DNA of 64,000 bases. Origin: Lactiplantibacillus pingfangensis (GTDB lineage Bacteria > Bacillota > Bacilli > Lactobacillales > Lactobacillaceae). The stretch covers positions 1 to 64,000 of the forward strand of contig NZ_BJDG01000013.1 of assembly GCF_005404945.1 (NCBI RefSeq), written 5' to 3'. A program made the position numbers and the translations under genes. How positions within the stretch are numbered: the stretch's first letter is position 1; every line of letters begins with the position of its first letter. The notes below the pieces were generated by a model. The model worked only from the letters and a program-made list of their open reading frames with translations. It was not told the DNA's origin and did not search any database. Below, in pieces: positions 1,471-54,995 of the stretch.

Positions 1471-1572
1471 GCTGTAGGTTGGGACTGATCGCATCGGTCG
1501 CGAGGGCCAAGACGTGCCTGGCTTGGACCGGTCCCACGACCGCATGTGATCAGTCCCAACCGGAAGCGGCAA
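1471..1572 (+). repeat. Repeat family A, short version (copy A1)
   Basis: TAGCTG leader, then an outer stem GGTTGGGACTGATC (1477-1490) pairing perfectly with GATCAGTCCCAACC (1548-1561), then the conserved tail CGGAAGCGGCAA. Only the third internal hairpin (CCAAG / CTTGG) is kept; hairpins I and II of full copies are absent. The rest of the 1183-1700 gap holds a terminator, a family A fragment and no gene. Confidence 0.85.
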
Positions 1573-1700
1573 TCACCAATGAATTTTGCTATCAAGTTAA
1601 TTATGAAAAAAGCTTAGATAACCTTCATTTTTCAGTACTGGCAAGCCTTGCCGTCACTCACTATACTCAAGTTACTTGAAAACGAAAGGTGGTCATACGA

Positions 1701-1961
1701 ATGCTCATCGAAAATGAAACTCCGGCATTAACGATTATTGCTGCACAAATTGTGAAAGTTTTCTATCCGTTCATCCTAGCGCGCACGGAAACTGGTCAAT
1801 ACTTACACTTACAACTTTCTGATCGTGAACAACAAGACCCACTGTTTTGGGACAGCCTCCGCAGTATTTTACAGGCTCATCTGTGGGTCCCGATTGGACA
1901 ACATTACCATCAACTACTTGATGATGGCTGGCTGCAGCCGACCACGGTTACCCCTGTCTGA
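1701..1961 (+). CDS. Small hypothetical protein (86 aa)
   Basis: I do not recognise this family. The ATG at 1701 is chosen because AAAGGTGG (1685-1692) lies about 8 bases upstream; a GTG at 1689 overlaps that site. The protein is acidic to neutral, rich in aromatic residues near the end (LFWDSLRSILQAHLWVPIGQHYHQLL), has no signal peptide and no membrane segment. It lies 85 bp upstream of the DedA gene in the same direction without a clear terminator between, so the two may be co-transcribed. Confidence 0.65.
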   Translation: MLIENETPALTIIAAQIVKVFYPFILARTETGQYLHLQLSDREQQDPLFWDSLRSILQAHLWVPIGQHYHQLLDDGWLQPTTVTPV

Positions 1962-2046
1962 GAAATCCTCAGGAATTTTTCACTTGTCGTAAGGGGCAAG
2001 CTTCCGCGCCAACCAGTATGCTTAATAAAAAAAACGAGGTAATCCC

Positions 2047-2688
2047 ATGACAACAATTTTAGCCATGTTCTTCCATTTAAATACGATTTTACCCCAACTC
2101 ATTGCCAGCTTCGGTAATTGGATCTATGTCGGTCTGTTCTTACTCATTTTTATTGAAACTGGACTAGTCGTCTTCCCGTTCCTGCCTGGTGACTCAATCT
2201 TATTCCTATGCGGCTCATTAGCAGCCATGGCCAGCGGGTCCCTCAACATTTGGGTTCTAGCCGCCACCCTCACACTCGCCGCCATTCTTGGTGACTTATG
2301 TAATTTTGAAATTGGCAAACGCTTTGGCGCTTATGTTTTAAATAACAATCGGCTCAAACGTTTCATTAAGCCTAAATACGTCCAAGACTCACAAGAATTT
2401 TTTGACCGTCATGGGAGCTTGGCAATCTTTCTAGGGCGCTTTGTCCCAATCATTCGGACCCTAGTGCCATTCACTGCTGGCATGAGTGCCATGCATTATC
2501 CAACTTTTGCACGCTACAACATCATTGGTGGGATCAGTTGGATTGTCGTCACGCTTGGCGCTGGCTTCCTATTCGGCAATATTAGTTTCGTCCAACAACA
2601 TTTCGAACTAATCATGCTCGCAATCGTCTTCATCTCTTTGATCCCTGTCGGCATTAGCATGCTGAATCGACGCAAAACGGTTGAATAA
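2047..2688 (+). CDS. DedA family inner-membrane protein
   Basis: 213 residues, highly hydrophobic. The DedA/SNARE-associated signature is present: an acidic residue in FIETGLVVFPFLPGDS (about 35-50) and GRFVPIIRTLVPFTAGMSAM (about 138-157), with the arginines that mark the family. Members of this family act as lipid flippases or scramblases (undecaprenyl phosphate or phosphatidylethanolamine) or support membrane potential; which applies here cannot be told. A good AACGAGG ribosome binding site precedes the ATG. The next gene, a response regulator-like protein, starts 32 bp downstream on the same strand. Confidence 0.9.
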   Translation: MTTILAMFFHLNTILPQLIASFGNWIYVGLFLLIFIETGLVVFPFLPGDSILFLCGSLAAMASGSLNIWVLAATLTLAAILGDLCNFEIGKRFGAYVLNNNRLKRFIKPKYVQDSQEFFDRHGSLAIFLGRFVPIIRTLVPFTAGMSAMHYPTFARYNIIGGISWIVVTLGAGFLFGNISFVQQHFELIMLAIVFISLIPVGISMLNRRKTVE

Positions 2689-2720
2689 CCACAATTTTTT
2701 AAAGTAAAAGAGGTCTACGG

Positions 2721-3401
2721 ATGGCAAAAATATTAATCGTGGCCCAACAAGATCCGCTACTAAATCAGCTCATTAGCTATTTACGGCAAAATCATTTCGG
2801 CCTCAAAACAATGACCAACAACGCTGACGCGACGCGACTCGCTGAACGTCACCCCGGGAGTTTTAGTCTCATTATTTTAAATTGGCAAGGTGCCAATTCA
2901 AAAACCTTGTCACAAATTCAGCGCCTTCGGCAGTCGCCAACCACTGCCATCATGGTCGTGACGACCATCACGGATACCGCACAAAAGATTGCCGTCTTAA
3001 CGGCTGGAGCAGATGATTTTGTGACCGAGCCACTGAGCTTACTCGAGTTAATTACTCGTGTGCGGGTCCTACTCCGTCGTCAATCCGGCGTGCAAACAAG
3101 CGGCAGTCAATTTCGATATAGTGATTTACTCATTGATACTAAAACGCGCCAAGTTTGGCGCAATGGTGTCTTGATTCAATTAACCCAACGTGAATACCAA
3201 TTATTATTAGTATTGGTCCAGCATGCGGAGGTTCAGTTAAGTCGTGCCGACTTACTAGCCTTAGCTTGGGGCGCCGACTTTACCGGTCAGCCCAACTTGA
3301 TTGATGTCTACATTCGCTACTTACGCCAAAAATTAGCCCTGACTACCACGCACCAACTGATTAAAACGGTGCGTGGCGTGGGCTATTGCTTACAAGCTTA
3401 G
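2721..3401 (+). CDS. OmpR-type response regulator with a non-phosphorylatable receiver
   Basis: 226 residues: receiver domain 1-120 and winged-helix DNA-binding domain about 128-226 (QLTQREYQLLLVL ... IDVYIRYLRQKL ... TVRGVGYCL). The receiver has lost its chemistry: the acidic pair that should be at 8-9 is A8-Q9, the phospho-acceptor aspartate is N54 (IILNW), and the conserved lysine is E103 (FVTEP). The paralogue 420 bp downstream has all of them (D8, D9, D54, K103). No histidine kinase is nearby. It may therefore act constitutively, by dimerising with its paralogue, or through another ligand. It follows the DedA gene closely (AAAGAGG ribosome binding site). Confidence 0.9.
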   Translation: MAKILIVAQQDPLLNQLISYLRQNHFGLKTMTNNADATRLAERHPGSFSLIILNWQGANSKTLSQIQRLRQSPTTAIMVVTTITDTAQKIAVLTAGADDFVTEPLSLLELITRVRVLLRRQSGVQTSGSQFRYSDLLIDTKTRQVWRNGVLIQLTQREYQLLLVLVQHAEVQLSRADLLALAWGADFTGQPNLIDVYIRYLRQKLALTTTHQLIKTVRGVGYCLQA

Positions 3402-3502
3402 CCAAAAAGGCGCGCATCTTTCGCGATGGGCGCTTTTTGACTGGCGTCAGCAACGGTCGCTCCCAAACCAAACTCGTGGTAAACGCGCCGTCAGTCAGAA
3501 AC

Positions 3503-3553
3503 GTTGTCCCACGGCCGCATATTATCAGTGGCAACCGGAAGCGACAACTTTTA
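3503..3553 (+). repeat. Fragment of repeat family A (right half)
   Basis: TCCCACGGCCGCATATTATCAGTGGC followed by CCGGAAGCGACAA is the right arm and tail of family A, read here in shortened form. No matching left arm is seen. The 3402-3819 gap otherwise contains an ACTAGCAATAT/ATATTGCTAGT hairpin (3632-3664) and the promoter region of the next gene. Confidence 0.55.
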
Positions 3554-3697
3554 ACTACAGACTAAAAAAGAGCCTGGTTTTCCTTCCCAGACCCTCAAAG
3601 AACCGGCTATTATGACTAATAATGGCTGATCACTAGCAATATTGCGAGTGACTATATTGCTAGTATAAGAAGTTGTCAGTTTGAACGCCAGTGCAAC

Positions 3698-3725
3698 TTT
3701 CTGAAACTTTTCTGAGATTTTCTTA
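3698..3725 (+). promoter_or_regulatory. Three direct repeats, likely response-regulator binding box
   Basis: TTTCTGA at 3698, TTTCTGA at 3709 and TTTCTTA at 3719 are spaced 11 and 10 bp, one helical turn, as is usual for OmpR/PhoB-type sites. They lie about 100 bp upstream of the canonical response regulator gene, so autoregulation is a reasonable inference. Confidence 0.45.
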
Positions 3726-3819
3726 GACTGTAACCAAAATTTAGTAATTGGTTATAGTTGTCCCATTTCATAATTATCACTATACTAAATACAAATAACT
3801 CAATCAGAGGTCCAATCGA

Positions 3820-4515
3820 ATGCCAAAAATTTTATTAGTAGATGATGAAGCCAGTGTCGTTGACTTTTTACAGCAAGAATTAGTTTTTGAAGACTATCAA
3901 GTCGTCACTGCAGCAGATGGGCAGGCGGCCTATGACACGTATCAACAACAAAAAGATAGCTTGGATCTGATTATTTTAGATTGGATGCTACCTAAGATGG
4001 ATGGACTCGAAGTCCTACGTCGCATCCGTAAACACGATGAGATTCCGGTGATCATGATGACTGCGCGTGACTATGTCAGTGATAAAGTTGCCGGGCTTGA
4101 CGGTGGTGCAGATGACTACATCACCAAACCTTTTGATACCGAAGAACTGCTAGCCCGCGTTCGCGTCATTTTGCGACATGAAGAACGCCAGCAGAATGTC
4201 AAAGAAGTTTATCAATTTTCAGATCTAGAACTTAATACTAAAGCTCGGCAAGTTAAACGAAATCAACGGCTCGTGCAATTAACCCAACGGGAATATGACC
4301 TGTTACTCGCACTGCTCAAAAATGCGCCAGAAACCTTGACGCGCGATGAGTTGTTGGACCAAGTGTGGGGTGTGGATTTTGAAGGCCAACCGAACATTGT
4401 TGATGTCTATGTCCGTTACTTACGCCATAAAATTGATACCGAAGCTGATTTTAAATTGATTCACACTGTTCGCGGCGTTGGTTACTGCTTACGCGATGAT
4501 CACCATACGTCATGA
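3820..4515 (+). CDS. Orphan OmpR/PhoB-family response regulator
   Basis: 231 residues with an intact receiver (D8, D9, phospho-acceptor D54 in IILDW, T81, K103 in ITKP) and a C-terminal winged helix (LTQREYDLLLALL, VDVYVRYLRHKI, TVRGVGYCL). It controls transcription after phosphorylation by a sensor kinase, but no kinase gene adjoins; the next gene encodes a YfhO protein. It is about 50 percent identical by eye to the degenerate paralogue just upstream, so the pair arose by duplication. The target cannot be named; its own promoter carries tandem TTTCTGA repeats. Confidence 0.93.
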   Translation: MPKILLVDDEASVVDFLQQELVFEDYQVVTAADGQAAYDTYQQQKDSLDLIILDWMLPKMDGLEVLRRIRKHDEIPVIMMTARDYVSDKVAGLDGGADDYITKPFDTEELLARVRVILRHEERQQNVKEVYQFSDLELNTKARQVKRNQRLVQLTQREYDLLLALLKNAPETLTRDELLDQVWGVDFEGQPNIVDVYVRYLRHKIDTEADFKLIHTVRGVGYCLRDDHHTS

Positions 4516-4669
4516 TTCCAGAAATTAACCCGACTTAACAGACTGACTCGCTTCAAGTTATCGCTTGTCGCGAGCCAGTTTGGCGTTAAAGTAGTAATTC
4601 CAGCTAATCGTTAGTATTATTCTGAAAAAAAATCAGAAACTTCTCGTTTTACCTGAGTGGTTACGCGTC

Positions 4670-4697
4670 ACGATAGTTCGTATACTAGGACTATCGT
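4670..4697 (+). promoter_or_regulatory. Inverted repeat spanning the -10 of the yfhO-like gene
   Basis: ACGATAGT (4670-4677) and ACTATCGT (4690-4697) flank a TATACT -10 hexamer (4681-4686). A repressor bound here would block the promoter. A TTCTGA...TCAGAA inverted repeat lies just upstream near 4619-4638. Confidence 0.4.
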
Positions 4698-4726
4698 AAT
4701 TAAACTGTATCGGAGCTGAGCGACAA

Positions 4727-7279: not shown

Positions 7280-7293
7280 GTTTCAACCGCGAA

Positions 7294-7337
7294 AAAAGGT
7301 GCCCCCGCAGCCAATTCTGGTTGCAGGGGCACCTTTT
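7294..7337 (+). terminator. Bidirectional terminator between convergent genes
   Basis: AAAAGGTGCCCC and AGGGGCACCTTTT form the base of a GC-rich stem with an inner CGCAGCC/GGTTGC helix; T-runs on both strands. Confidence 0.93.
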
Positions 7338-7376
7338 CTGATTTCTTGATCACATTCTAATCTTCAATTTGACCGG

Positions 7377-7712
7377 CTAATCCGTTTCATCGCATAACAC
7401 CGTCGTCAAGTGATCCCGGTCAACGTGGGCGAGGCCCCAATCACAAATTGTATCCAACACTGGGATCATCGAGTGACCATTTTCAGTTAATTGATAGGCC
7501 ACATGCAATGGCTGTTCGTGAAAGTCATGGCGTTGGACTAAGCCATCCGCTATTAACTGTTGCAACTGCTCGGCCAAAATTTTATGCGTGACATTCAGTG
7601 TGCGTTGCAGCTGGTTAAACCGGCCTTCACCGTCAGCCAGCTCATATAAAATCAAAATTTTCCATTTACCACGGATCATTTGCATCGTGGCATCAAATTC
7701 ATTTGCGTACAT
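7377..7712 (-). CDS. HxlR family winged-helix regulator
   Basis: 111 residues from the ATG at 7712, which has GGAGGG 6 bases upstream; a longer reading to 7757 has no ribosome binding site. The HxlR core is clear: MIRGKWKILILYELADGEGRFNQLQRTL, then the recognition helix THKILAEQLQQLIADGLV and the wing with YQLTENG. Such proteins often sense electrophiles, aldehydes or quinones through cysteines; here the cysteines are in CDWGL and VLCDE near the end. It is divergent from a short-chain dehydrogenase gene, the usual arrangement for a regulator and its target. Confidence 0.9.
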   Translation of the reverse strand: MYANEFDATMQMIRGKWKILILYELADGEGRFNQLQRTLNVTHKILAEQLQQLIADGLVQRHDFHEQPLHVAYQLTENGHSMIPVLDTICDWGLAHVDRDHLTTVLCDETD

Positions 7713-7727
7713 CTCGACCCTCCATGA

Positions 7728-7754
7728 CCTAGTTACTAAAAAGTGCGTACTAGG
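7728..7754. promoter_or_regulatory. Candidate HxlR operator
   Basis: CCTAGT (7728-7733) and ACTAGG (7749-7754) are inverted arms around TACTAAAAAGTGCGT, just upstream of the regulator gene and of a TATACT -10 (7773-7778) for the divergent dehydrogenase gene. Confidence 0.4.
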
Positions 7755-7833
7755 CAAATTGCCAATTCAGATTATACTTATCTCTTGTATTCGTCAAATC
7801 AGACAATTTAATTAAAAGGAAGTTTAAACTCAA

Positions 7834-8559: not shown

Positions 8560-8607
8560 GGGATAATAAAGTATCTAATATTTTAATTTTTAAATAACAG
8601 CGCCACA

Positions 8608-8669: not shown

Positions 8670-8678
8670 GATTTCTAA

Positions 8679-9087
8679 CTGAAGGTTGAAAGGACAAAAA
8701 AGCTCGTAAATACTGGCATATCGGCAACAGGCACTTCAGAATTAGTGGTGATCCCGCTCCGGCAGGCAGAAATCGCTGTGCTATGGTGGGACGGTCGCAG
8801 CCATAGTGCGGTCTGCGACTTCGATTTAAAGCCGATAACCCACGTCTTTAAATCGCCCTGTAAGATTAGGCGGCCAAGACCCGCCGGCCAATCTTACCGA
8901 CACAGCACAACGATTTCTGCCTGCTTCCGCTAAACCTAACCTAAAAATAGCTAAATTAGCTGGAAGTCGCCACTGATAGCATCAGTCGTTAAGGTAGCAT
9001 TGGCGACTGGAAGCGGCACTGTCAACTAATCTTCATGTCCTAATCATTGACATGGCAGTAGTTATTAGCAATTTTGATCTTTCAACC
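8679..9087 (+). mobile_element. Composite MITE-like element 1 (modules B and short A)
   Basis: AAGGTTGAAAG at 8682-8692 and its inverted copy CTTTCAACCTT at 9079-9089 bound the unit. Outside them lies the same 13-mer, TTTAGATTTCTAA, at 8666-8678 and at 9088-9100, like a target-site duplication. Inside are module B (8762-8924) and a shortened family A stem (GTCGCC / GGCGAC, about 8963-9014) with the GGAAGCGGCA tail. There is no coding sequence. Open reading frames here are by-products of the repeats. Confidence 0.75.
8762..8924 (+). repeat. Repeat family B, copy B1
   Basis: A 21-nt outer arm starting GCAGGCAGAAATCG pairs with AGCACAACGATTTCTG onward at 8904-8924 (one mismatch). Inner hairpins: CGATTTAAAG/CTTTAAATCG and AAGATTAGGCGG/CCGCCggcCAATCTT. 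The second copy at 47695-47835 has GATTTCAAG/CTTGAAATC at the same place, a compensatory change. Confidence 0.8.
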
Positions 9088-9249
9088 TTTAGATTTCTAA
9101 GAAAAAAGCTTGTCAGTATCGAACACGTTGAAACTAGACTCGTGGTGAGCGCACTGTCAGTTAGAATCGTTGTGGAATATAGAACAGTTTCAACCATCAT
9201 ACGATCTGAGGCTTCGGCACACCATTCCTGTCCGTCTCTGCTAAACTTA

Positions 9250-9440
9250 ATATCTGCAGGTTGGGACTGATGCCATCGGTCGTGAGGGTGGCGTTACATC
9301 GGCCGCTTTTTGCCGACGTTACCCCACGGACGGTCCGGTACACTTGCGATATTTGCAAGGGTTCCGGGCGAGGACCAAGACGTGTCTGGCTTGGTCCGGT
9401 CCCACGACCGCATGGCATCAGTCCCAACCAGAAGCGGCAA
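9250..9440 (+). repeat. Repeat family A, full-length copy A3
   Basis: The outer stem runs from 9259 to 9284 and 9403 to 9429: 18 bp perfect, one bulged C, then 8 bp (CGGTCGTG/CACGACCG). It closes three hairpins: CGGC/GCCG near 9300-9316; CCGGTACACTTGC/GCAAGGGTTCCGG near 9334-9367; GGACCAAG/CTTGGTCC near 9372-9397. It is followed by the tail AGAAGCGGCAA. The gap 8560-9533 contains only the terminator, composite element 1 and this copy. Confidence 0.9.
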
Positions 9441-15666: not shown

Positions 15667-15778
15667 TGGTTAAATTACCATTCCGAGTTTACTTGCCGCT
15701 ACCACACTTAATTCATTGTGCCCAACTCATGGCCGCTTGTCGTTAAAATAAGGCTGACGGCACAAGCAGGTTACTGAA

Positions 15779-16160
15779 GATTGAAAGAACAAAAGGACTC
15801 GTAAACACTGTCATATAGGCAACAGGCACTGCCAAATCAGTGGTAATCCCACTCCGGCAGGCAGAATCGCTAAATCTAGTCTAAAAACGGTTAAATTAGC
15901 TGGAAGTCGCCGCTGATAGCATCGGTCGTGAAGGTGGCGTTGGGTCGGCATGTTTCTTGCCGGCGTTACGCAGCGGACGGTCCAGGACACTTGCGATTTG
16001 TGCAAGTGTTCTGGGCGAGGACCAAGACGTTCTTCAGGCTTGGCCCGGTCCCGCGGCCGCATGTTATCAGTGGCGACTGGAAGCGGCACTATCAAGTAAT
16101 CTTCATGCCCTAATCATTGATGTGGCAGCAGTTACTAGCGATTCTGATCTTTCAACCTTT
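15779..16160 (+). mobile_element. Composite MITE-like element 2 (full module A, no module B)
   Basis: The 14-mer AGCAGGTTACTGAA occurs at 15765-15778 and again at 16161-16174. Just inside are AAGATTGAAAG on the left and CTTTCAACCTT (16149-16159) on the right. The flanks align with composite element 1 (CTCGTAAA, GGCAACAGGCACT, CTCCGGCAGGCAGAA on the left; TAATCATTGA on the right). Where element 1 carries module B, this one jumps directly from GGCAGGCAGAATCGCTAAA. Its module A is full length: outer stem GTCGCCGCTGATA (15906-15918) / TATCAGTGGCGAC (16065-16077), hairpin II CCAGGACACTTGC/GCAAGTGTTCTGG fully paired. Confidence 0.8.
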
Positions 16161-16186
16161 AGCAGGTTACTGAAAAGTGACCCAAA

Positions 16187-22744: not shown

Positions 22745-23045
22745 GTTAGTAAGCTTCAAGCTTTTCTCGGTTTGCTCTAAATTCATTACTTGTTTAGTCT
22801 TTTATATAAATTGATTCTCGAATAGTGCTAATTTCCGCCTACCGGGGGCTTCGTTTGGGGCTGGAACGCCATGAACCATTTTTGAGCCAAAGGGCGGTCT
22901 CAAAAGCTGGTTTTTGACTAACCGTGGACAAAATCACCACGCTAAGTCAAACGCCACGGCTGAGCCCCAAACGAAGCCCCCTCACGGCTAAAGATGTGCA
23001 TTGTTTTGAATGACCAGTCATCCAAAAATTTTGACTAGGTGCCAA
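22745..23045 (+). repeat. Repeat family C, copy C1
   Basis: The core is a perfect 19-bp stem, GGGGGCTTCGTTTGGGGCT (22844-22862) with its complement at 22963-22981. Inside are two hairpins: AACCATTTTTGAG/CTCAAAAGCTGGTT and TTTGACTAACCGTGG/CCACGCTAAGTCAAA. A conserved left flank (AAGCTTTTCTCGGTTTGCTC ... TTTCCGCCTACC) and right flank (CTCACGGCTA ... AAAAATTTTGAC) recur at the other copies. It lies in a 1.4-kb gene-free gap (22503-23907) together with two family A copies. Confidence 0.88.
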
Positions 23046-23252: not shown

Positions 23253-23360
23253 GCTAGCTGTAGGTTGCTGCTGATTACATCGGCTGAGAACCAAGACGTA
23301 TCTGGCCTGGCACGGTCCTACGACCATATGACATCAGCAACAACAGGAAACCGCAACTTT
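23253..23360 (+). repeat. Repeat family A, short copy A5
   Basis: TAGCTG leader; outer arms GTTGCTGCTGAT (23264-23275) and ATCAGCAACAAC (23333-23344), 11 of 12 paired and different in sequence from other copies; only a weak third hairpin remains; tail AGGAAACCGCAA. Confidence 0.75.
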
Positions 23361-23383: not shown

Positions 23384-23800
23384 CGGTTGAAAGGTTAATA
23401 CTGGCTATCAATTCTAATTTAACAAGGTTTTATAAGTGAAATATTAATTACGGCGCTCAAAGAAAATATTCAAGATAGTTCTAAACATTCCTAACTGATG
23501 CCATTATTTTTAAGAATCAAATCAACTGTTTTTTAGTCTTTTATCTTGATAAACATTATCCTAGCTGGAGGGCGTCGCTGATTGCATCAGGCGTGAAAGT
23601 CCCGTTTGAGCGGCGTTTTTTGCCGGTCTTACAGGACGGACGGTCCGGGATAGTTGCGCCTTTCGCAACCATTCCGGGCGAAGTCCGCATGTAATCAGCG
23701 ACGCCCGGAAGCGATAACGTTAACTTTTTTTCATTGCCAATGTACTAGTACGATCGCATGCTATCAGTGGCAACCGGAAGCGGCAACGTTGCTCACTCCC
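23384..23800 (+). repeat. Repeat family A, copy A6 with left arm, plus adjoining fragment
   Basis: Begins with CGGTTGAAAGG and a roughly 170-bp left arm alignable with that of copy A9. Outer stem GGGCGTCGCTGATTGCAT (23570-23587) / ATGTAATCAGCGACGCCC (23689-23706), all 18 positions paired with one G-T. Hairpin II CCGGGATAGTTGC/GCAACCATTCCGG is intact, hairpin III is deleted. At 23750-23795 a right-end fragment of another copy (CATGCTATCAGTGGCAACCG) follows. Confidence 0.85.
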
Positions 23801-33934: not shown

Positions 33935-34215
33935 TGACGGCAAGTAAGTGTCAAGTTTTTCTCGGTTTTCTCTAAACTCATTACTGATGGGCCTTTCATT
34001 CCCTTTGCTAATTGAATAGTGAATGACAGCTGATTTCCGCCTACCGGGGGCTTCGTTTGCGGCTGGAACGCCATGAACCAGTTTTGAGCCAAAAGGCGGT
34101 CTCAAAAGCTGGTTTTTGACTAACCGTGGACAAATCACCACGCTAAGTCAAACGCCACGGCTGAGCCCCAAACGAAACCCCCTCACGGCTAGAAACGTGC
34201 CTTATTTTGACTGCC
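33935..34215 (+). repeat. Repeat family C, copy C2
   Basis: Left flank TTTTTCTCGGTTTTCTCTAA, then TTTCCGCCTACC. Outer arms GGGGGCTTCGTTTGCGGCT (34046-34064) and AGCCCCAAACGAAACCCCC (34164-34182), 17 of 19 paired. Inner hairpins AACCAGTTTTGAG/CTCAAAAGCTGGTT and TTTGACTAACCGTGG/CCACGCTAAGTCAAA are as in C1. It is the only C copy next to the 5' end of a gene. Confidence 0.87.
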
Positions 34216-40602: not shown

Positions 40603-42426
40603 TTATTCTACCGTGACACTCTTGGCCAAATTCCGTGGCTTATCAACATCTAAGCCCTTGTTCAAACTTGTGTAGTAAGCCAATAACTGACCAGGAACCA
40701 CACTGAGTAAGGCGGTCATTCGTTCATCAACCGTTGGTAACACGACTGTGTCATCCGGTTTTGCTAAAGCGTCTGTGACGATGGTAATCGTCTTAGCGCC
40801 CCGAGCAGCAACTTCTTGCAAGTTTGACCGCGTTAACCCGGCCGTCTTTTGCTGGGTAATAATCCCAATAACCGGCGTATCCTTTTCAATCAAGGCAATC
40901 GTCCCATGCTTCAATTCACCCGAAGCAAAGCCTTCTGCTTGAACATAAGAGATTTCCTTAAGCTTCAAAGCCGTTTCCAACGAAACCGCATAGTCTAAAC
41001 CCCGGCCAATGTAAAAGGCATTTGGCGTGTGTAATAACGCACTCTTAGCTAATTTGTCGAAAGTTGCTTTTTCATCGACAAGTGCTTGCATGCCATTCGC
41101 AACTAAGGCTAATTGTTGTTTAACATCAAAGTCTTTGGCTGCGGTCTGGTTATCCGCTTCACCTAAAGCTTTGGCCAAAATCGCTTGTAAGGCAATCTGA
41201 GCAGTATAGGCTTTAGTAGACGCAACCGCAATTTCAGGGCCAGCATGTAGCAACAGCGTATAAGTTGCTTCCCGTGATAACGTTGAGTTAGGCACATTGG
41301 TAATCGTCAAACTTGGAAATTTTTGTTCGTTGACGTTCAATAAGACTTCACGGCTATCGGCCGTTTCACCTGATTGCGTCAAGAAAATGAAGAATGGCTT
41401 CTTTGAAAGCAATGGTTGGTTATAAGCAAATTCAGATGACACATGGACTTCAGTTGGCACTCCGGCGAGTGATTCAAAGAGTTTAGCCCCCACTAAACCA
41501 GCATGATAACTCGTCCCAGCAGCCACAATGTATAAGCGGTCTGCTGATTTGATTGCCGTCAACAAGTCGGCATTAATGACCGGCGTCCCATCATCATTCA
41601 AATAAACTTGTGATAACTTTCGCATCACATTTGGTTGTTCGTCGATTTCTTTTAGCATGTAGAAAGGATAAGTCCCTTTGTCTGCTTGCGCAGCGTCAAT
41701 ATCCACATGGAATGTCTGACGTTGCACTGCGTCGCCAGCTTGATCCGTAATCTTGATCTCATCGGGCTTAACGACAACAATTTCACCGTCATGTAATTCC
41801 AAGAAATCTTTGGTTTGATCTAGCATCGCCAAACTATCAGAACAAACGACGTTGAATCCATCACCAACACCGATTAAGAGTGGGCTCTTATTTTTGGCAA
41901 CGTATAAGGTATCAGGATCTTCTTTATCCATCAATAAGAAACCGTATGATGAATGGCCTAATAAACTTAACGTTTTCCGGAAGGCCGACAACGTGTCTAG
42001 CCCTTCCTTTGTCACAAAGCGGTCAACCAATTGAACGATAACTTCGGTGTCCGTCTGTGAAGTAAATTGAACATCACTTAAATAATCTGATTTTAAATCT
42101 TGGAAGTTTTCGATGACACCGTTGTGAACTAAGAAGAAGCGCCCATCGGCTGAAACTTGCGGATGCGCATTAGCCACACTTGGTTCACCATGAGTCGCCC
42201 AACGTGTATGTCCGATCCCAGTCGTGCCATGGACATTGGCCGTCGCACTAACTTCTTTACGCAAGTCGTCAATCCGACCCTTTTCTTTGACCAAATAGTC
42301 TTCGCCATTCTGATCATTAACATAAATACCCGCTGAATCGTACCCGCGGTATTCCAATCTTTGTAAGCCATTTAATAAAATCGATACTGCATTATCATTA
42401 CCGGTAACTCCAACAATTCCACACAT
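40603..42426 (-). CDS. glmS: Glutamine-fructose-6-phosphate aminotransferase
   Basis: 607 residues. Glutaminase domain begins at Cys2 (MCGIVGVTGN) with RWATHGEPS and GVIENF; two SIS isomerase domains follow (AAGTSYHAG, TQSGETADSREVL, ASTKAYTAQ), ending in LAKSVTVE. Converts fructose 6-phosphate and glutamine to glucosamine 6-phosphate, the first step of UDP-GlcNAc synthesis. Its message carries a glmS ribozyme, so the product feeds back on its own mRNA, and its promoter has GntR-type sites. glmM lies 1.2 kb downstream in the direction opposite to usual operons (upstream on this strand), separated by repeats. Confidence 0.98.
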   Translation of the reverse strand: MCGIVGVTGNDNAVSILLNGLQRLEYRGYDSAGIYVNDQNGEDYLVKEKGRIDDLRKEVSATANVHGTTGIGHTRWATHGEPSVANAHPQVSADGRFFLVHNGVIENFQDLKSDYLSDVQFTSQTDTEVIVQLVDRFVTKEGLDTLSAFRKTLSLLGHSSYGFLLMDKEDPDTLYVAKNKSPLLIGVGDGFNVVCSDSLAMLDQTKDFLELHDGEIVVVKPDEIKITDQAGDAVQRQTFHVDIDAAQADKGTYPFYMLKEIDEQPNVMRKLSQVYLNDDGTPVINADLLTAIKSADRLYIVAAGTSYHAGLVGAKLFESLAGVPTEVHVSSEFAYNQPLLSKKPFFIFLTQSGETADSREVLLNVNEQKFPSLTITNVPNSTLSREATYTLLLHAGPEIAVASTKAYTAQIALQAILAKALGEADNQTAAKDFDVKQQLALVANGMQALVDEKATFDKLAKSALLHTPNAFYIGRGLDYAVSLETALKLKEISYVQAEGFASGELKHGTIALIEKDTPVIGIITQQKTAGLTRSNLQEVAARGAKTITIVTDALAKPDDTVVLPTVDERMTALLSVVPGQLLAYYTSLNKGLDVDKPRNLAKSVTVE

Positions 42427-42469
42427 AAGTTAATCTTCCTTTACTTGTTTGAATTGTTTCTAGCTGCTT

Positions 42470-42600
42470 GGTCAATATATCTGGCACTAGTCTCACAACT
42501 AGCTTTTGTAACTGACCTGTAGAGTGCAGTCCCTGACATCACCCGTCGATTGTCGATAAATGTCATCCTCGTCAACTTTAGAATCTAAAGTCCTGGCGCT
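42470..42600 (-). ncRNA. glmS ribozyme
   Basis: On the minus strand the conserved core is present in order: AGCGCCAGGAC (cleavage expected 5' of the G at 42599), the P2 loop closing with AGTTGACGAGGATG, TTTATCGA, CGACGGGTGATGTC, and the P4 element GGTCA...TGACC with a CTAGT/ACTAG inner helix (ending at 42470). It matches my memory of the Bacillus and Lactobacillus glmS ribozymes. Glucosamine 6-phosphate triggers self-cleavage and mRNA decay. An ACCAATT/AATTGGT hairpin (42612-42628) precedes it. Confidence 0.93.
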
Positions 42601-42643
42601 ATTCCGCTTTAACCAATTAAGAATTGGTCGTTTTTCACCTCTG

Positions 42644-42751: not shown

Positions 42752-42869
42752 GTAAGCAAAACAACCAACTGAGACATTCTGGTAGCGTCCGTAACTATTT
42801 GTTGAGATGACTAAAAGTTGCATGCACAAAATGAAATGTGAACAAGTCCATATCAGCGATGGTTGCTTC

Positions 42870-42995
42870 TAAACTAGACCCGTGATGAGTGAGTGCTCCG
42901 TCAGACATAATAACTGAAGGTTGAGTCGTCCAAGACGTGCCTGGCTTGGACCGATCCCACGACCGCATGTTATCAGCCTCAACCGGAAGCGACAG
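42870..42995 (+). repeat. Repeat family A, reduced copy A8 with left arm
   Basis: Left arm TAGACCCGTGATGAG...CTCCGTCAG, then outer arms GGTTGAG (42919-42925) / CTCAACC (42978-42984), hairpin III GTCCAAG/CTTGGAC and the tail CGGAAGCGACAG. Hairpins I and II missing. Confidence 0.75.
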
Positions 42996-43052
42996 CTGTC
43001 AACTAGTCCGTAAGTGCCGATTAGTTGCGCAACGGATTTTATTTTTTAATTA

Positions 43053-43495
43053 AAGGTTGAAAGGCGGCTAGTGGCTATTAATCCCAGTGTAACAGTAGTG
43101 ACATATGAAATATTACTCACAGATAGCTAATGAAAGCATTGAGAAAGTTCAAAACACCACCGACTGGCTCAATGATTTTCAAGAATCAAATCGCCTGTTT
43201 TTGATGCCGGTTACTTTATAACCATTAACCTAGCTGGCCGGTGTCGCTGATTGCATCGGACGTGAAAGTCCCGTTTGAGCGGCGGCTTTTTGCCGGTCTT
43301 ACGGGACGGACGGTCCGGAATAGTTGCGATTTTTGCAACCATTCCGGGCGAAGGCCAAGACCGCTCCTCAGGCTTGGCCTGGTCCCTCGTCCGCATGTAA
43401 CCAGCGACACCCGGAAGCGACAGCTTTGACTTTTCTCGTTATCAATATACTGATACGACAGCATTTATTAGTTATTATCGTCTTTCAACCTTTAG
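43053..43495 (+). repeat. Repeat family A, full copy A9 with both arms
   Basis: Bounded by AAAGGTTGAAAGG (43053-43065) and CTTTCAACCTTT (43482-43493). Left arm alignable with copy A6. Outer stem GGTGTCGCTGATT (43240-43252) / AACCAGCGACACC (43399-43411), one mismatch; hairpins CGGC/GCCG, CCGGAATAGTTGC/GCAACCATTCCGG and GGCCAAG/CTTGGCC all present. Confidence 0.87.
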
Positions 43496-47637: not shown

Positions 47638-47694
47638 CCGTTTAATTAACGGAGACTGTTGATTTAGGCTTGTAGTGAGCGCTCCGTCAGTCAA

Positions 47695-47835
47695 AATCGT
47701 TGTGCTAGGCGGGACAGTCCCAACCAGAAAACGGTCTGTGACTTCGATTTCAAGCCGATAGCCCACGTCTTGAAATCGCCCAGTGATTAGGCGGCCCAGA
47801 ACGCCGACTAATCTTACCGACACAGCACAACGATT
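47695..47835 (+). repeat. Repeat family B, copy B2
   Basis: Outer arms AATCGTTGTGCT (47695-47706) / AGCACAACGATT (47824-47835), perfect. Inner hairpins: GATTTCAAG/CTTGAAATC and GATTAGGCG/CGCCGACTAATC. Preceded by the arm sequence TAGTGAGCGCTCCGTCAGTC. Confidence 0.8.
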
Positions 47836-47854
47836 CCGCCTGTCTACGCTAAGC

Positions 47855-48108
47855 TTAATAGCTGAAGGTTGGGACTGATAACATCGGTCGTGATGGTCGC
47901 GTTGCATCAGCCGTTTTTGCCGACGTTACGCCACGGACGGACCGGGACACTTGCGCTTTTGGCAAGGGTTCCGGACGAGGTCCAAGACGTCCTTGGCTTG
48001 GACCGGTCCCACGACCGCATGTTATCAGTCTCAACCGGAAGTGAAATCCGTATGGACCTGATTATTGACGCAGTGGGGCTTACTCGCGAATTTCATCTTT
48101 CAACCTTT
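47855..48108 (+). repeat. Repeat family A, full copy A10 with right arm
   Basis: TAGCTG leader; outer stem GGTTGGGACTGATAACAT (47867-47884) / ATGTTATCAGTCTCAACC (48019-48036), 18 pairs with one G-T, then CGGTCGTG/CACGACCG; hairpin II CCGGGACACTTGC/GCAAGGGTTCCGG; hairpin III GGTCCAAG/CTTGGACC, the mirror of A3's GGACCAAG/CTTGGTCC. Ends with the arm CTTTCAACCTTT (48097-48108). Confidence 0.9.
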
Positions 48109-48118
48109 CCTTTAAAAT

Positions 48119-48164: not shown

Positions 48165-48178
48165 GTTGTTGAGTTGCT

Positions 48179-48688
48179 TTAAAGCACTTTAGGATCACTA
48201 TATGTCGAATGTGCACTCCGTTTATCATGGAGACCGCTGAAACCACTAAAGCCCATTTCAGTCGCTTTCTTCTCCGCATCCGTAATATAACGTAGCGTAT
48301 CATCCGCCCGCTTTTCACCATAAACTTGTAACCATTGATGGAACCGTTCATCCGATGCCGAACTAATGGCTTGCTCAACCTTTAAGCCCGCTGGTGTTAA
48401 CGACAAATATTTAATCCGTCGATCACTGGCATTAGTCGTTTGATCAATATACTTTAAGTCGAGTAAGACATTAATTTGCCGCGCAATTGCACTTCGTGAA
48501 ACACGTTGGGCATTGGCAATTTTAACCAGTGTCAACGGTTCCTTCGTTGTCGCAATCATCTGCATCACAATATAAGCCTCGAAAGTGATCTTATACGGCC
48601 GTGTTGGCACTGAGACAAAGTCACCAATGTATTTCAAAATATGCATATAAGTTTCAACGAATTGTTCGTGGATCTCTGCTTCTGTCAT
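48179..48688 (-). CDS. MarR family regulator
   Basis: 169 residues. Winged helix with ITFEAYIVMQMIATTKEPLT, recognition helix VSRSAIARQINVLLDL and wing NASDRRIKYLSLTPAG. The C-terminus (GFSGFSGLHDKRSAHSTYS) is longer than usual. GGGGGGAC precedes the ATG. Upstream lies the palindrome TGGCAATTAATTGCCA, probably its own operator. Similar in size and layout to the MarR protein at 16187. Confidence 0.9.
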   Translation of the reverse strand: MTEAEIHEQFVETYMHILKYIGDFVSVPTRPYKITFEAYIVMQMIATTKEPLTLVKIANAQRVSRSAIARQINVLLDLKYIDQTTNASDRRIKYLSLTPAGLKVEQAISSASDERFHQWLQVYGEKRADDTLRYITDAEKKATEMGFSGFSGLHDKRSAHSTYSDPKVL

Positions 48689-48734
48689 ATGACGTCCCCC
48701 CGCTAGGTTTCACCTAATAATCCCGTTTATTACT

Positions 48735-48750
48735 TGGCAATTAATTGCCA
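48735..48750. promoter_or_regulatory. Perfect 16-bp palindrome, candidate MarR operator
   Basis: TGGCAATTAATTGCCA, 47 bp upstream of the MarR start; a smaller TAGGT-ttc-ACCTA repeat lies at 48704-48716. Confidence 0.55.
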
Positions 48751-48828
48751 GTTCTAATCATTCACTCTAAATACTATTCTAACCTTATTATAACCGAGAA
48801 GGCTTGCAATGCAATATAAAATAATTTA

Positions 48829-50964: not shown

Positions 50965-51003
50965 TAAAGTGTTGCCTCCTTTGTTCAATATAATTTGAAA
51001 GTG

Positions 51004-51906
51004 CTATTTGACATCCTCGCCGATGATCCGAACTTCGGTCTCAAGGTGAACGCCAAAGGTTTCATAAACAACTTTTTGCACATAATGAATCATATCCATG
51101 TAGTCGGTCGCCGTTGCATGATCGACATTAATAATAAAGCCAGCGTGTTTCTTGGAAACTTGCGCGCCGCCAATTTGATGTCCTTGTAGACCGGCATCAT
51201 GGATTAGTTTACCAGTAAAGTAGCCGGTTGGTCGCTTGAAAACACTCCCACACGATGGCCACTCTAAAGGCTGCTTCGACGCCCGGAGTGTATTGAGCTC
51301 ATCCATCCGAGCTTGGATCGTCTTCTGGTTACCGGGTTTAAGCTTAAAGGTGGCCGTAACCACGGTGTCATCGTAATCTTGGACCGTACTGTGACGATAA
51401 CCGAATTCAAGGTCGGCATTCGATAATGTTTTTAAATGCCCTTCGCGCGTTAAAACAGTGACTTCTTCAATGACTTCACTCATTTCACCGCCGTAAGCGC
51501 CAGCATTCATAAAGACTGCACCACCGACACTGCCAGGAATACCGGCTGCAAATTCAAGCCCCGTGAGACTCGCCTGACAAGCAACCTTAGTCGTGGCAAT
51601 TAACGCCGCACCGGCTTCGGCCACCACTTCAGTTTCACTGGCATGAATCTGGGCCATTTTGGTCAAAATAATCGTCAAGCCACGAATGCCACCATCCTTA
51701 ACGATTAAATTGCTGGCATTCCCGATTATGGTGATTGGCATTTCGCGGGCATCGGCAAATTCAATCAAACTTTTCGTTTCACTGATTGACTTAGGAAATG
51801 CCACGTAATCTGCGGGACCTCCAGTTTTAGTATTCGTATAATGACTCAGTGATTCATCTTTTTTAATTTCAATGGCTGGAAAACTGGCCAACACATCTTG
51901 GGTCAT
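51004..51906 (-). CDS. murB: UDP-N-acetylenolpyruvoylglucosamine reductase
   Basis: 300 residues from the ATG at 51906 (AAAGGAAC 8 bases upstream). FAD-binding type 4 domain: [53 protein letters not shown]; reductase domain with the catalytic serine in [10 protein letters not shown], and the final glutamate in ETEVRIIG. Type II MurB as in Firmicutes. Second committed step of peptidoglycan precursor synthesis. Confidence 0.97.
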
Positions 51907-52029
51907 GGGTAAAGTTCCTTTCATGGTTCAATTTTACAATTATTTTAAGGACGGTACGCTCAATCCCCACTCGTTATCGTCGAGATAAGGTCTAAAGTAA
52001 CCGTTAGAGTGTTTTAATGATAGCACTTT

Positions 52030-52932
52030 TTAATCGCTTAATAAATGACGGCACACCGCGTGACTCGTAATGGCAGATGTGGGATCAACTGGATTAGGAC
52101 CGTGCGTGGCGACTGCCGTCAAGAACGCCCGGATTAGCGGGGCAAAACCGCGCTTTTCTAACGTTTGCGTCCAATCTGGAAAAATCGTCGTTTGCGTTTG
52201 CGCAGTTTGATAGGTTGTTAAACTGCTCAAATTATTGACCACGGCACGTTGTAAACTAGCTTGCACCGTTGACGTTTCCAAGTTGATCCCACCACGCATA
52301 TTGGTCACAACTTGTAACTGCTCATGGGCGGTTTGGGCTGTAAAGTAGCCTTGCGCCAATTTGCCGTCAGCAGTCGCTACAATTCTGCCGGTCGTTGTCA
52401 CTAATGGTTCATCTAATAAGTATAACCCAGTATCCACACTATGAATCATCAGATCAAATACAGCGGTTTCCACGTCTTGATCACTCGTTTCACGAACCTT
52501 CTCGGCCATGATCAACCGTTTATCAGGAATCGCCTTTAATTGTTGATTAAGCGGTGCAAAGCGCCGATTAAAGCCACAAGTTAAGAGTAAGTGCCGCGCA
52601 GCCGCCAAGTCATATAAGCCCTGAACTTCCTGCAAATCCATCGAAACCGGTTTATCAACATACACATTAATATCGGCAAGCAGCAACTTTTTGATGATAC
52701 TGGCATGGGTCGCAGTCGGCGTATGCACAAAGACTGCGGCCGGCTGTGTCGCCATCAGCTCATCTAAAGTCGCATGCGTGTGCGTAAACCCATATTCTGC
52801 GGCCAACTGCTGCCTTTTTTCTGGATTGCGCGTCGTCAGATGAAACTCATACTGGTCTTGCATCGCCGCCATCACGGGCAGATAAGCCTTTTGTGCGATA
52901 TTTCCTAAACCAAGCACACCAATTTTTATCAT
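52030..52932 (-). CDS. Gfo/Idh/MocA-family oxidoreductase
   Basis: 300 residues. Rossmann domain at the start (IGVLGLGNIAQKAYLPVM), VDKPVSMDLQEVQGLYDLA (the EKP-like motif, here DKP, at about 93-95) and a C-terminal alpha/beta dimer domain. Acts on sugars, inositols or related compounds with NAD(P); the substrate cannot be told. TTGGAGG precedes the ATG. Divergent from exoA. Confidence 0.9.
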   Translation of the reverse strand: MIKIGVLGLGNIAQKAYLPVMAAMQDQYEFHLTTRNPEKRQQLAAEYGFTHTHATLDELMATQPAAVFVHTPTATHASIIKKLLLADINVYVDKPVSMDLQEVQGLYDLAAARHLLLTCGFNRRFAPLNQQLKAIPDKRLIMAEKVRETSDQDVETAVFDLMIHSVDTGLYLLDEPLVTTTGRIVATADGKLAQGYFTAQTAHEQLQVVTNMRGGINLETSTVQASLQRAVVNNLSSLTTYQTAQTQTTIFPDWTQTLEKRGFAPLIRAFLTAVATHGPNPVDPTSAITSHAVCRHLLSD

Positions 52933-53004
52933 GTGAAATCCTCCAATTTAATGCATCGAATGCGGTACAATTGACCTATTAACAAATAGAAAGGCGTTGA
53001 CATA

Positions 53005-53760
53005 ATGAAATTTATCTCTTGGAACGTCAATGGCCTGCGTGCCGCGGTAAAACACGGCTTCGTCGACCGTTTTAATGAACTTGATGCAGATGCGTTCTGC
53101 CTGCAAGAAACTAAGCTGCAAGCCGGTCAAATTGCACTCGACTTGCCAGGCTATCACCAATACTGGAACTACGCCGAACGAAAGGGTTACTCTGGCACCG
53201 CGATTTTTACCAAAAATGAACCGTTGCGCGTTGCTTATGGGATCGGCGTCCCCGAGCACGATACCGAGGGGCGCGTTATTACACTAGAATACGCGGATTA
53301 TTACCTGATTACTTGCTACACACCTAATTCTGGCGGCGAACTCAAACGCCTGGCCTATCGCCAAACTTGGGAAGACGCCTTTTTAGCTTATATTAACGGG
53401 CTTAACGCGGACAAACCTGTGATTTTCTGTGGCGATTTAAATGTCGCTCACGAAAACATTGATCTTAAAAACTGGCAAAGTAACCACCACAGTGCCGGAT
53501 TTACGGACGAGGAACGTGGTAAATTCAACCAGTTGCTCGCTAGTGGCTACACTGATACGTTCCGTCATTTTTATCCAGACCAGACCGGGATTTATTCCTG
53601 GTGGAGCTATCGGGCACATGCCAGAGAAAACAATTCTGGTTGGCGGATTGATTATTTTATCGCCTCTGAAAAATTGAACGATCGCTTGTTAAACGCCCGC
53701 ATCTTAACCGATGTGATGGGTTCCGATCACTGTCCGGTTGAACTCGACATTCGAGTCTAA
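53005..53760 (+). CDS. exoA: Exodeoxyribonuclease III / AP endonuclease
   Basis: 251 residues. FISWNVNGLRAA (3-14), LQETKLQ, YSGTAIF, CGDLNVAHENIDL, GWRIDYFIAS and the final GSDHCPVELDI show all metal and catalytic residues of the ExoIII family. Cleaves DNA 5' of abasic sites in base-excision repair. AAAGGCG precedes the ATG; the exonuclease gene follows 66 bp later on the same strand. Confidence 0.97.
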   Translation: MKFISWNVNGLRAAVKHGFVDRFNELDADAFCLQETKLQAGQIALDLPGYHQYWNYAERKGYSGTAIFTKNEPLRVAYGIGVPEHDTEGRVITLEYADYYLITCYTPNSGGELKRLAYRQTWEDAFLAYINGLNADKPVIFCGDLNVAHENIDLKNWQSNHHSAGFTDEERGKFNQLLASGYTDTFRHFYPDQTGIYSWWSYRAHARENNSGWRIDYFIASEKLNDRLLNARILTDVMGSDHCPVELDIRV

Positions 53761-53826
53761 AACTTGAATTTTACGACTAATCCAAGTACGATTAGCCCAT
53801 AATATTTAGAAATGTAGGTGAACTGG

Positions 53827-54363
53827 TTGAATTTTGTCGCCATGGACTTTGAAACCGCCAGTGCCAAGCGTGATAGCGCTTGTTCATTGGCGCTCACCAT
53901 TGTTCGTAATAATCAAATTGCGGATGAATTTTATACCTTGATCAAACCTGAAACGGACTTTTTCTGGCGTAACGTTCAGATTCATGGTATTCATGCCGAA
54001 GATGTCGCGGATGCGCCAAAGTTTCCAGCAGTCTGGGAGCATATCCAACCGTTTTTTCAACGGGACCGCCTGGTGATTGCGCACAATGCACCCTTTGACA
54101 CCGGCGTCTTACGCCAAACATTGGCCCATTATGGTATTGGTGCCCCAGAATATCTGTCGATGGACACCGTCAAAACAAGCAAAAAATTCTATCCTGAATT
54201 GCCTAATCACAAGCTTGACACCATGTGCCGCGCACTAGATATTGAGCTTCAGCACCACCACAACGCCCTCGATGATAGCTTGGCCTGCGCCAATATTCTC
54301 ATCACCGAGGCCGAGCAATTCGGTGCCGAACAACTCAAACCTTTCGTTCGCGTCCAAGGTTAA
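53827..54363 (+). CDS. DnaQ-like 3'-5' exonuclease
   Basis: 178 residues. TTG at 53827 chosen (AGGTG 6 bases upstream); a GTG at 53818 is inside that site. DEDDh motifs: MDFETAS (ExoI), AHNAPFDTGVL (ExoII) and HHNALDDSLA (ExoIII). A stand-alone proofreading or RNA/DNA trimming enzyme of the epsilon-subunit type. Probably in an operon with exoA. Confidence 0.9.
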   Translation: MNFVAMDFETASAKRDSACSLALTIVRNNQIADEFYTLIKPETDFFWRNVQIHGIHAEDVADAPKFPAVWEHIQPFFQRDRLVIAHNAPFDTGVLRQTLAHYGIGAPEYLSMDTVKTSKKFYPELPNHKLDTMCRALDIELQHHHNALDDSLACANILITEAEQFGAEQLKPFVRVQG

Positions 54364-54365
54364 TC

Positions 54366-54411
54366 AAAAGTGAGTCAAACAGCTATTAATGGCGGTTTGA
54401 CCCACTTTTTT
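54366..54411 (+). terminator. Terminator of the exoA region
   Basis: AAAAGTGAGTCAAAC and GGTTTGACCCACTTTT followed by TT; one mismatch. Confidence 0.9.
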
Positions 54412-54417
54412 AGTCAT

Positions 54418-54612
54418 TAACTTGTCGCTTCCGGTTGGGACTGATACCATGCGGCCGTGGGACCGGGCCAAGCCAGGCACGTCTTGGTCCTCGTCCGCAA
54501 CCCTTGCAAAAACCGCAAGTGTCCCGGCCAGTCCGTGGTGTAAAATCGGCAAAAACGGCCGATTAACGCCACCATCACGACCGATGGCATCAGTCCCAAC
54601 CTTCAGCTAATT
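54418..54612 (-). repeat. Repeat family A, inverted full copy A11
   Basis: The tail reads CTTGTCGCTTCCGG at the left and the TAGCTG leader as CAGCTA at the right, so the copy is on the minus strand. Outer arms GGTTGGGACTGATACCAT (54433-54450) and ATGGCATCAGTCCCAACC (54584-54601), one mismatch; all three hairpins recognisable. Confidence 0.87.
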
Positions 54613-54794
54613 AACAGCTTTTCAATAGCTAACTAGGCGTATCAGAAGTCGTAGACCGCACTCGTACTGGGCCTGTCACAACACCACAAACGACATAATA
54701 CTCATGGACAATAGTAACAAGTAATATAATTTTCACACACTGTTTAAGAATTTACTGTGTCACTCACAACTTTGAAGGCTACTACCGGCTAATG

Positions 54795-54995
54795 ATCTTT
54801 AACTAGCTGTATGCCGTCGCAGATGACATCGGGCGTGAAGGTCTCCGTTAGTCTGGCGTCCTTTGCCAGTCTTACGGAACGGACGGTCCGGGATAGTTGC
54901 GATTTTGGCAACAATTCCGGGCGAAGGCCAAGACGTTTCTCAGGCTTGGCCTGGTCCCACGCCTGCATGTCATCTGTGACGGCTGGAAGCACACT
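54795..54995 (+). repeat. Repeat family A, full copy A12
   Basis: CTAGCTG leader; outer stem GCCGTCGCAGATGACAT (54813-54829) / ATGTCATCTGTGACGGC (54967-54983), all paired with one G-T and a sequence unlike any other copy; hairpin I CTGGC/GCCAG, II CCGGGATAGTTGC/GCAACAATTCCGG, III GGCCAAG/CTTGGCC. The gap 54364-55004 holds this, copy A11 and the terminator, nothing else. Confidence 0.9.

Follow-up and report, generated by a model that had tools for sequence, protein, structure and literature searches.

A 64,000-nucleotide (nt) stretch of the Lactiplantibacillus pingfangensis genome (contig NZ_BJDG01000013.1, positions 1 to 64,000; hereafter the window) carries copies of a dispersed cloverleaf repeat. 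We consider this repeat, on balance, probably to be a mobile, non-coding family of often twinned cloverleaves, which is borne in the host genus by miniature inverted-repeat transposable elements (MITEs) of the IS4 insertion sequence (IS) family and whose fold is kept by selection. The original prediction, made from the window alone, had described the cloverleaf and its covarying stems. It had missed the inverted repeats at the element ends, the duplicated target sites, the opposite-strand partner and the distant membership of a second window repeat, all of which are described below.

Compensatory evolution of a four-armed fold

The cloverleaf unit is ~185 nt long. A long outer stem closes a junction with three arms and is interrupted near its base by a GGA/GGA loop. 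We counted 120 compensatory branch events on a parsimony tree of 133 distinct copies, against 7.0 ± 2.6 expected (maximum 17) when the changes were dealt out again over the branches in 200 replicates. Slid pairing partners gave 2–9 events, and structure pairs carried 1.9 events each compared with 0.031 for non-structure pairs. A tree built from unpaired columns yielded 185 events against 11.2 ± 3.0 (slid partners, 1–22). In an alignment of 46 sequences, 96.6% of the cells are paired and 33 pairs show double changes, a number reached in none of 500 shuffles (slid partners, 8–12). The compensatory base changes that had been predicted in the stems are thus borne out.

The claim that no named family fits also stands. 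A search of Rfam release 15 at gathering scores returned only glmS and one tRNA in the window, and only one tRNA in eight relative loci; the best sub-threshold match on one copy reached 15.3 bits against a cut-off of 100. We therefore rejected a known Rfam element.

Opposite-strand partners form head-to-head twins

We used two covariance models. R1 was built from 46 copies of six genomes (alignment A2), including six of the seven full window copies and leaving out 23562–23713, and R2 from 24 copies of the partner module only. This module, B, lies beside some of the copies first described (A) and is a diverged homologous cloverleaf on the opposite strand. R1 finds B at 69.8 bits (8754–8933) and 76.9 bits (L114), with reverse strands of A reaching 52, so that B at 47679–47852 (47.2 bits) is undecidable by R1 alone. 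R2 finds units of other genera in the same strands as R1 (31–111 bits, E 1e-28 to 7e-7), except for one unit of genome G263, of another genus, which it did not recover. Its scores on six window A copies (31–43 bits, E 5e-10 to 9e-7) lie near those of B's own reverse strand (34–35) and prove little. B itself covaries, with 25 double-change pairs against 14.2 ± 2.1 in shuffles and 5–8 in slides. B folds on the other strand, its reverse complement being the more stable of the two in 81 of 82 cases; each unit is therefore read outward.

Units of a pair stand head to head, with 5′ ends facing and 3′ ends outward. A further 76 loci were read, 22 of G263 and otherwise the top-scoring ones of other genomes. 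Of these, 44 have a partner head to head at no more than 270 bp, one is tandem and none is tail-to-tail. Such partners occur in 18/22 loci of G263 and 26/54 elsewhere. The ten G263 pairs that we mapped, several of them chosen as already listed pairs, are all minus-then-plus with 57–170 bp spacing; G263 locus L331 holds a single unit.

The fold is preferred on one strand

The own-strand fold is more stable than that of the reverse complement in 159 of 163 copies (nine genomes; related copies). Single-step changes away from Watson–Crick pairs, read on the own strand, lead to G-U in 135 cases and to A-C in 87. With the unpaired-column tree the counts are 149 and 94 (ratio 1.58, bootstrap 95% confidence interval 1.11–2.21), and by branch they are about 33 v 11 internal and 103 v 76 terminal. 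Unpaired columns show the opposite lean (133 v 248).

These two features, compensatory changes and the favouring of G-U over A-C on the own strand, agree with the predicted selection on a folded single strand, and we regard selection on the fold as likely. Palindrome-perfecting template switching predicts no strand preference, so palindrome correction alone should not give rise to one.

Orthologous loci separate selection from conversion in part

The original prediction had left selection and gene conversion as alternative readings of the covariation. We compared 40 distinct units of G004 with 46 of G016, two related species; these 86 are a part of the copies in either genome. Ten unit pairs are syntenic. 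The units are 0.897 identical and their 250-bp flanks, coding sequence included, 0.857; gaps number 20 beside 1859 aligned positions in the units and 812 beside 4594 in the flanks. Of the pair changes at the ten loci, 22 are compensatory, 33 are wobble-type and a further 37 are of the breaking or mending kind.

At seven of the ten loci the two orthologues are each other's nearest among the 86 units, at L235 by a single bit (244 v 243). At these seven, the changes are compensatory in 9 cases, wobble-type in 26 and breaking or mending in 17; about one compensatory pair would be expected by chance, as estimated from 7% per-site divergence. The remaining three loci, where paralogues lie nearer to the unit than its orthologue does, account for 13 of the 22 compensatory pairs and may reflect conversion or independent insertion. 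Recombination between copies is also suggested by a chimeric copy (L019:1779–1965, alignment A1), in which the 5′ outer-stem strand of one subfamily and the 3′ strand of another form a mismatched stem.

These three loci and the chimera are what favours the view that the stem changes arose by gene conversion between copies, or by the template switching named above, rather than by functional selection. Compensatory changes at orthologous loci of two species argue against gene conversion alone, as those at the seven reciprocal-nearest loci are not readily explained by it, and template switching does not predict the strand preference, to which unpaired columns lean the opposite way. We judge this view rather improbable. 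Selection and conversion are therefore separable in part, compensatory changes being present within the set of seven nearest orthologues and three loci remaining attributable to conversion or independent insertion.

An IS4-family MITE is the vehicle in the host genus

In this genome, cloverleaves lie within elements of ~310–570 bp with 14-bp ends, CTRAAGGTTGAAAG...CTTTCAACCTTYAG. Matches to the terminal repeat CTNAAGGTTGNAAG at ≤1 mismatch number 63 + 59 (122) in the genome, against 7 + 9 (16) for the reversed control. Among its 77 A copies, a left end lies no more than 450 nt away in 44 (control 5) and a right end no more than 150 nt away in 41 (control 14); 31 copies have both, so that part of the copies carries the terminal repeats of a MITE. 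Target duplications of 7–9 bp occur at 31 of 76 end pairs from several genomes, a count taken without a shuffled control. At the one locus tried, a precise empty site was found: G004 reads TTAAATAA-element-TTAAATAA, each end of the element being 2 mismatches from the consensus, and G016 has a single TTAAATAA and no element.

IS4-family elements of 1.46–1.57 kb with the same ends as the MITEs are present in G019 (L366), G008 (L367) and G020 (L368), and broken ones in G017 (L369) and the L. pingfangensis genome itself (L089, G000). A second G020 copy (L370) has no recognisable end pair. The transposase family was checked for L089, L366 and L368 and is IS4. In the G020 element the IS4 transposase is intact, at 457 aa (NF049925, 460 bits), and a 7-bp duplication is present. 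Thirteen MITEs of G020 were compared and are almost identical. In L089 (697–2156) the transposase is split into two open reading frames (ORFs), and the element is for this reason probably inactive here.

Mobility of the element in the host genus is well supported, and it is explained by a known mechanism, movement in trans by an IS4-family transposase, a step that we infer. The carrier is of a known kind, an IS4-family MITE, with those defining features that can be tested present in part of the copies.

The fold occurs in other genera without these ends

R1 matched the fold in 14 of 21 genomes of the host genus (G001 and G010 by one weak match each). In a sample of the family, 38 of 251 genomes and 10 of 40 genera were matched, host genus included; in a sample of the order, searched under stricter filters, 3 of 246 genomes were matched, all within the same family. 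With 150 candidates scored in each genome, and with reduced copies and both pair members counted, there are at least 142 matches in this genome, 144 in G014, 104 in G263 and 93 in G133. By eye, the plan shared across genera is TA-GCY-GGA-stem ... stem-GGA-RGC-G, where arm 1 has GTTA..TTAC, and arms 2 and 3 have AGAC..GGCU and are closed by GGAC/GUCC; the sequence otherwise varies. A separate subfamily of ~177 nt in G004 and G016 (L246–L254, five loci read) keeps the ends TAGCTGGAGG..CCGGAAGC and differs in the second arm.

None of 61 units in G263 has both MITE ends, and there is one left-end match (control 2); the ten G133 units likewise include none with both ends and one left-end match. Among 26 loci of other genera, 24 have no MITE-end match, three of these (L267, L279 and L288) not being properly oriented in the scan, and L274 and L275 have isolated matches at least 446 nt away. 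The original prediction had counted an IS-derived origin as evidence against its reading. This objection holds by half: it applies to the vehicle, an IS4-family MITE here, and the cloverleaf, which is present in other genera without those ends, is therefore not merely an IS remnant.

The same evidence bears on the idea that there is only a decayed MITE family, with A and B as functionless internal sequence that folds back by accident. In its favour, both ends surround only 31 of the 77 A copies, and MITE transcripts are described, in the review PMC10969869, as forming stable stem-loops. Against this stand the fold in ten genera, with largely different sequence and without MITE ends in those looked at, and the 120 compensatory events where 7 are expected. 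We disfavour purely decayed sequence on these two grounds and hold it to be very improbable.

By eye, the 25 largest ORF clusters near copies contain no transposase and no recurrent mobile gene, no family search having been made, and we rejected a dedicated neighbouring gene on this basis. Carriage by plasmids or phages was rejected because one window copy found no DNA-level match, a comparison that could miss distant relatives. A broader reading, which we put forward tentatively and at less than even probability, is that the cloverleaf is an undescribed, family-wide class of structured RNA in Lactobacillaceae, often in divergent pairs and with about 100 or more matches in several genomes, which is under locus-level selection and, in one genus, has become the cargo of an unrelated transposon.

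Genes converge on the 3′ side of A in the host genus

Gene context was read for 138 units placed between two ORFs, out of 212 distinct units (33 without one ORF, 28 overlapping an ORF of ≥100 aa and 13 too near the locus end were excluded). The gene on the 3′ side points toward A in 120/138, and the gene on the 5′ side in 77/138. By genome, 3′-side convergence is 40/49 (G000), 24/26 (G004), 25/27 (G016), 9/10 (G009), 7/7 (G013), 2/3 (G020) and 7/10 (G014). A fixed orientation of insertion beside terminators was rejected: duplication-bearing copies show, by eye, terminators on either side, and the 120:18 bias is therefore not accounted for in this way.

Similar open frames recur in 26 loci. The frame in L180 (1221–1661, minus strand) runs antisense to the cloverleaf, as the others seem to do. 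They are probably a chance outcome of composition and could mislead gene callers.

RNA or single-stranded DNA as the acting form

In the host genus, one unit or a B + A pair is carried inside a MITE with 14-bp ends, which an IS4-family transposase would move in trans, leaving 8-bp target duplications. Selection would maintain the fold on the outward-reading strand of each unit. The acting form would most simply be RNA, made by transcription through the element, and we favour RNA by slightly better than an even chance. As to the effect of the fold, we can only infer that the folded segment might protect or insulate intergenic transcripts, such that many copies are tolerated by host and element.

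The fold could instead act as single-stranded DNA, the paired units being structured ends that replication or transposition would expose as a single strand for recognition. Hairpins are recognised on an exposed single strand in IS200/IS605 and repetitive extragenic palindromic (REP) systems. Two equivalent inverted units with a conserved outward GCGGCAA do resemble transposon ends, the fold is as significant with DNA as with RNA parameters (z = −7.5 and −7.3 for copy 47859–48043), and the G263 spacers give no promoter signal. Yet separate IS4-type ends and 8-bp duplications outside the units already account for mobility in the host genus, the ORF clusters near copies gave no transposase in the reading by eye, without a family search, described above, and no duplications were noticed by eye around the ten G263 pairs. 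We consider single-stranded DNA unlikely, though it is the main rival to RNA.

Several observations weigh against a selected, RNA-acting, MITE-borne twin. The folding energies of copy 47859–48043 do not tell RNA from DNA. Promoter-like signals (score ≥9) in the G263 spacers point toward the units in 5/61 and away in 9/61, with 20% in shuffled sequence, and divergent promoters in the spacer were rejected for want of a signal in G263; the B–A spacer at 47852–47858 is just 7 bp, which therefore leaves them no room. The excess of G-U is modest, falls off on terminal branches and differs from pair to pair (27 pairs with more G-U than A-C, 23 the reverse), and the strand counts ignore kinship among copies that are related and not independent. 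A homemade G-test in the manner of R-scape, with average product correction and a tree-based null, yielded only two pairs at E < 0.05, both in the structure; we read this, the weaker of the two covariation results, as low power. Between orthologues, the unit gains little in conservation over its flanks, and breaking or mending changes number 37. Pairing is not universal: 31 of the 76 loci have no partner, 18 of the 44 partners score below 60 bits, and among the 77 A copies of this genome 28 are preceded by a B-like partner and 8 stand head to head with another A. For 46 of these 77, the search did not find both ends. The 3′-side convergence bias, finally, is absent in G133 (5/10) and G263 (4/9).

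Should the broader, family-wide reading be true, divergent structured RNAs serving the host would be spread through these genomes. The RNA library searched does not include this large, structured and strongly compensating element, which belongs to a bacterial family with wide use in food. Head-to-head diverged copies on an IS4-type MITE offer a testable case of real RNA function versus selfish structure only, and selection at single loci can be measured on the orthologous copies of two related species.

Copies in the window

All seven copies predicted as full were recovered by R1 (125–199 bits, E ≤ 2e-32); six are full, and 23562–23713 is only 152 nt and one hairpin short. The four reduced copies were likewise recovered (73, 33, 24.5 and 19.7 bits), and the shared end GGAAGCGRCA is matched 15 times with no more than one mismatch, where shuffles give 6.3 ± 2.6 (Table 1).

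Table 1. Cloverleaf copies, terminal inverted repeats and target duplications in the window
Feature	Position	Strand	Evidence
Cloverleaf A, reduced (100 nt)	1469–1568	+	R1 73.4 bits, E=2e-18
Target duplication ATTTCTAA, left copy	8671–8678	.	Direct reading; locus L001
Left terminal inverted repeat CTGAAGGTTGAAAG of MITE 8679–9092	8679–8692	+	End search
Cloverleaf B, opposite-strand partner	8752–8932	−	R2 170.9 bits (in R2 training); R1 69.8 bits at 8754–8933
Cloverleaf A, strongly reduced	8957–9015	+	R1 24.5 bits, E=4e-5
Right terminal inverted repeat CTTTCAACCTTTAG of MITE 8679–9092	9079–9092	−	End search
Target duplication ATTTCTAA, right copy	9093–9100	.	Direct reading; locus L001
Possible reduced cloverleaf B beside copy 9251	9147–9243	−	R2 20.0 bits, E=0.001; weak
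Cloverleaf A, full	9251–9436	+	R1 199 bits
Left terminal inverted repeat CTGAAGATTGAAAG	15774–15787	+	End search
Cloverleaf A, full, second outer-stem type	15897–16085	+	R1 193 bits
Right terminal inverted repeat	16149–16162	−	End search
Distant reduced member	22837–22990	−, orientation uncertain	R1 50.2 bits, E=4e-12
Cloverleaf A, reduced	23255–23352	+	R1 33.1 bits
Cloverleaf A, 152 nt, without one hairpin	23562–23713	+	R1 124.9 bits
Distant reduced member	34035–34191	−	R2 19.8 bits, E=0.001
Cloverleaf A, reduced	42853–42991	+	R1 19.7 bits, E=9e-4
Left terminal inverted repeat TTAAAGGTTGAAAG	43050–43063	+	End search
Cloverleaf A, full, third outer-stem type	43231–43419	+	R1 194 bits
Right terminal inverted repeat CTTTCAACCTTTAG	43482–43495	−	End search
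Cloverleaf B, partner of 47859	47677–47851	−	R2 164.5 bits (in R2 training); R1 47.2 bits at 47679–47852
Cloverleaf A, full, 7 bp from B partner	47859–48043	+	R1 190 bits; fold z=−7.3
Cloverleaf A, left half of inverted A/A pair	54426–54609	−	R1 188 bits
Cloverleaf A, right half of inverted A/A pair	54804–54991	+	R1 189 bits
Distant reduced member, keeps TAGCC..GAGACCGCACTTTGGCTC..GGCGGAAA	63606–63762	+	R1 45.7 bits (63606–63758), R2 26.1 bits

A second dispersed repeat lies at 22748–23012, 33943–34213 and 63389–63766, with longer stretches 88–97% alike. With either covariance model it scores as a distant, reduced cloverleaf, and it keeps a GAGACCGC..GGCTC arm. The member at 34035–34191 is 91–96% like 22827–23012 and 93% complementary to 63602–63764; the orientation of 22837–22990 is uncertain because reverse strands of true copies reach 52 bits with R1.

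The duplication-flanked MITE 8679–9092 directly adjoins copy 9251–9436, and the elements thus cluster in the same intergenic gaps. A glmS ribozyme at 42460–42611 (minus strand), just upstream of a 607-aa ORF (40603–42426), shares its intergenic region with cloverleaf elements.

Comparison with known repeats

Like REP elements and REPINs, the cloverleaf is a structured unit that is present in many copies and forms inverted pairs. REPINs are inverted pairs of REPs, and REPs are often tied to RAYT transposases. No RAYT-type gene was noticed, no genome-wide search having been made. A REP, as outlined in part of PMC3733652, is a 20–40-bp palindrome with a GTAG or CGTC tag; the cloverleaf unit, at ~185 nt and with TAGC..GCG ends, falls outside this description.

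Like bcr1, the cloverleaf is an intergenic mobile repeat with a conserved fold, and unlike it is often paired head to head and spread over ten genera, a distinction drawn from descriptions and not from sequence. The bcr1 repeat is a single unit of one species group, with a conserved fold, intergenic and mobile. In the passages that treat it, bcr1 is a ~150-nt repeat of the Bacillus cereus group (PMC2267715) and is classed as a MITE (PMC3733652).

Within the same bacterial order, BOX, RUP, SPRITE and EFAR are, like the cloverleaf, intergenic structured repeats. EFAR is a structured repeat. BOX, RUP and SPRITE appear in part of PMC10969869 as repeats of Streptococcus pneumoniae, and EFAR is named for Enterococcus in part of PMC3733652. 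Here the cloverleaf differs in that the three order genomes matched by R1 (of 246) all belong to its own family, and it is set apart without direct sequence comparison. The cargo, a four-armed fold found in ten genera and often paired, matches nothing found, and no description of the cloverleaf repeat came up in a literature search beyond which most subscription papers lie.

Closest in their mobility are the IS4-family MITEs of bacteria. The elements described here share with them short IS4-like ends, 8-bp duplications, an intergenic position with no coding capacity seen, and one empty site. They differ in that their internal part is a conserved four-armed fold, often paired, which is found elsewhere without the ends.

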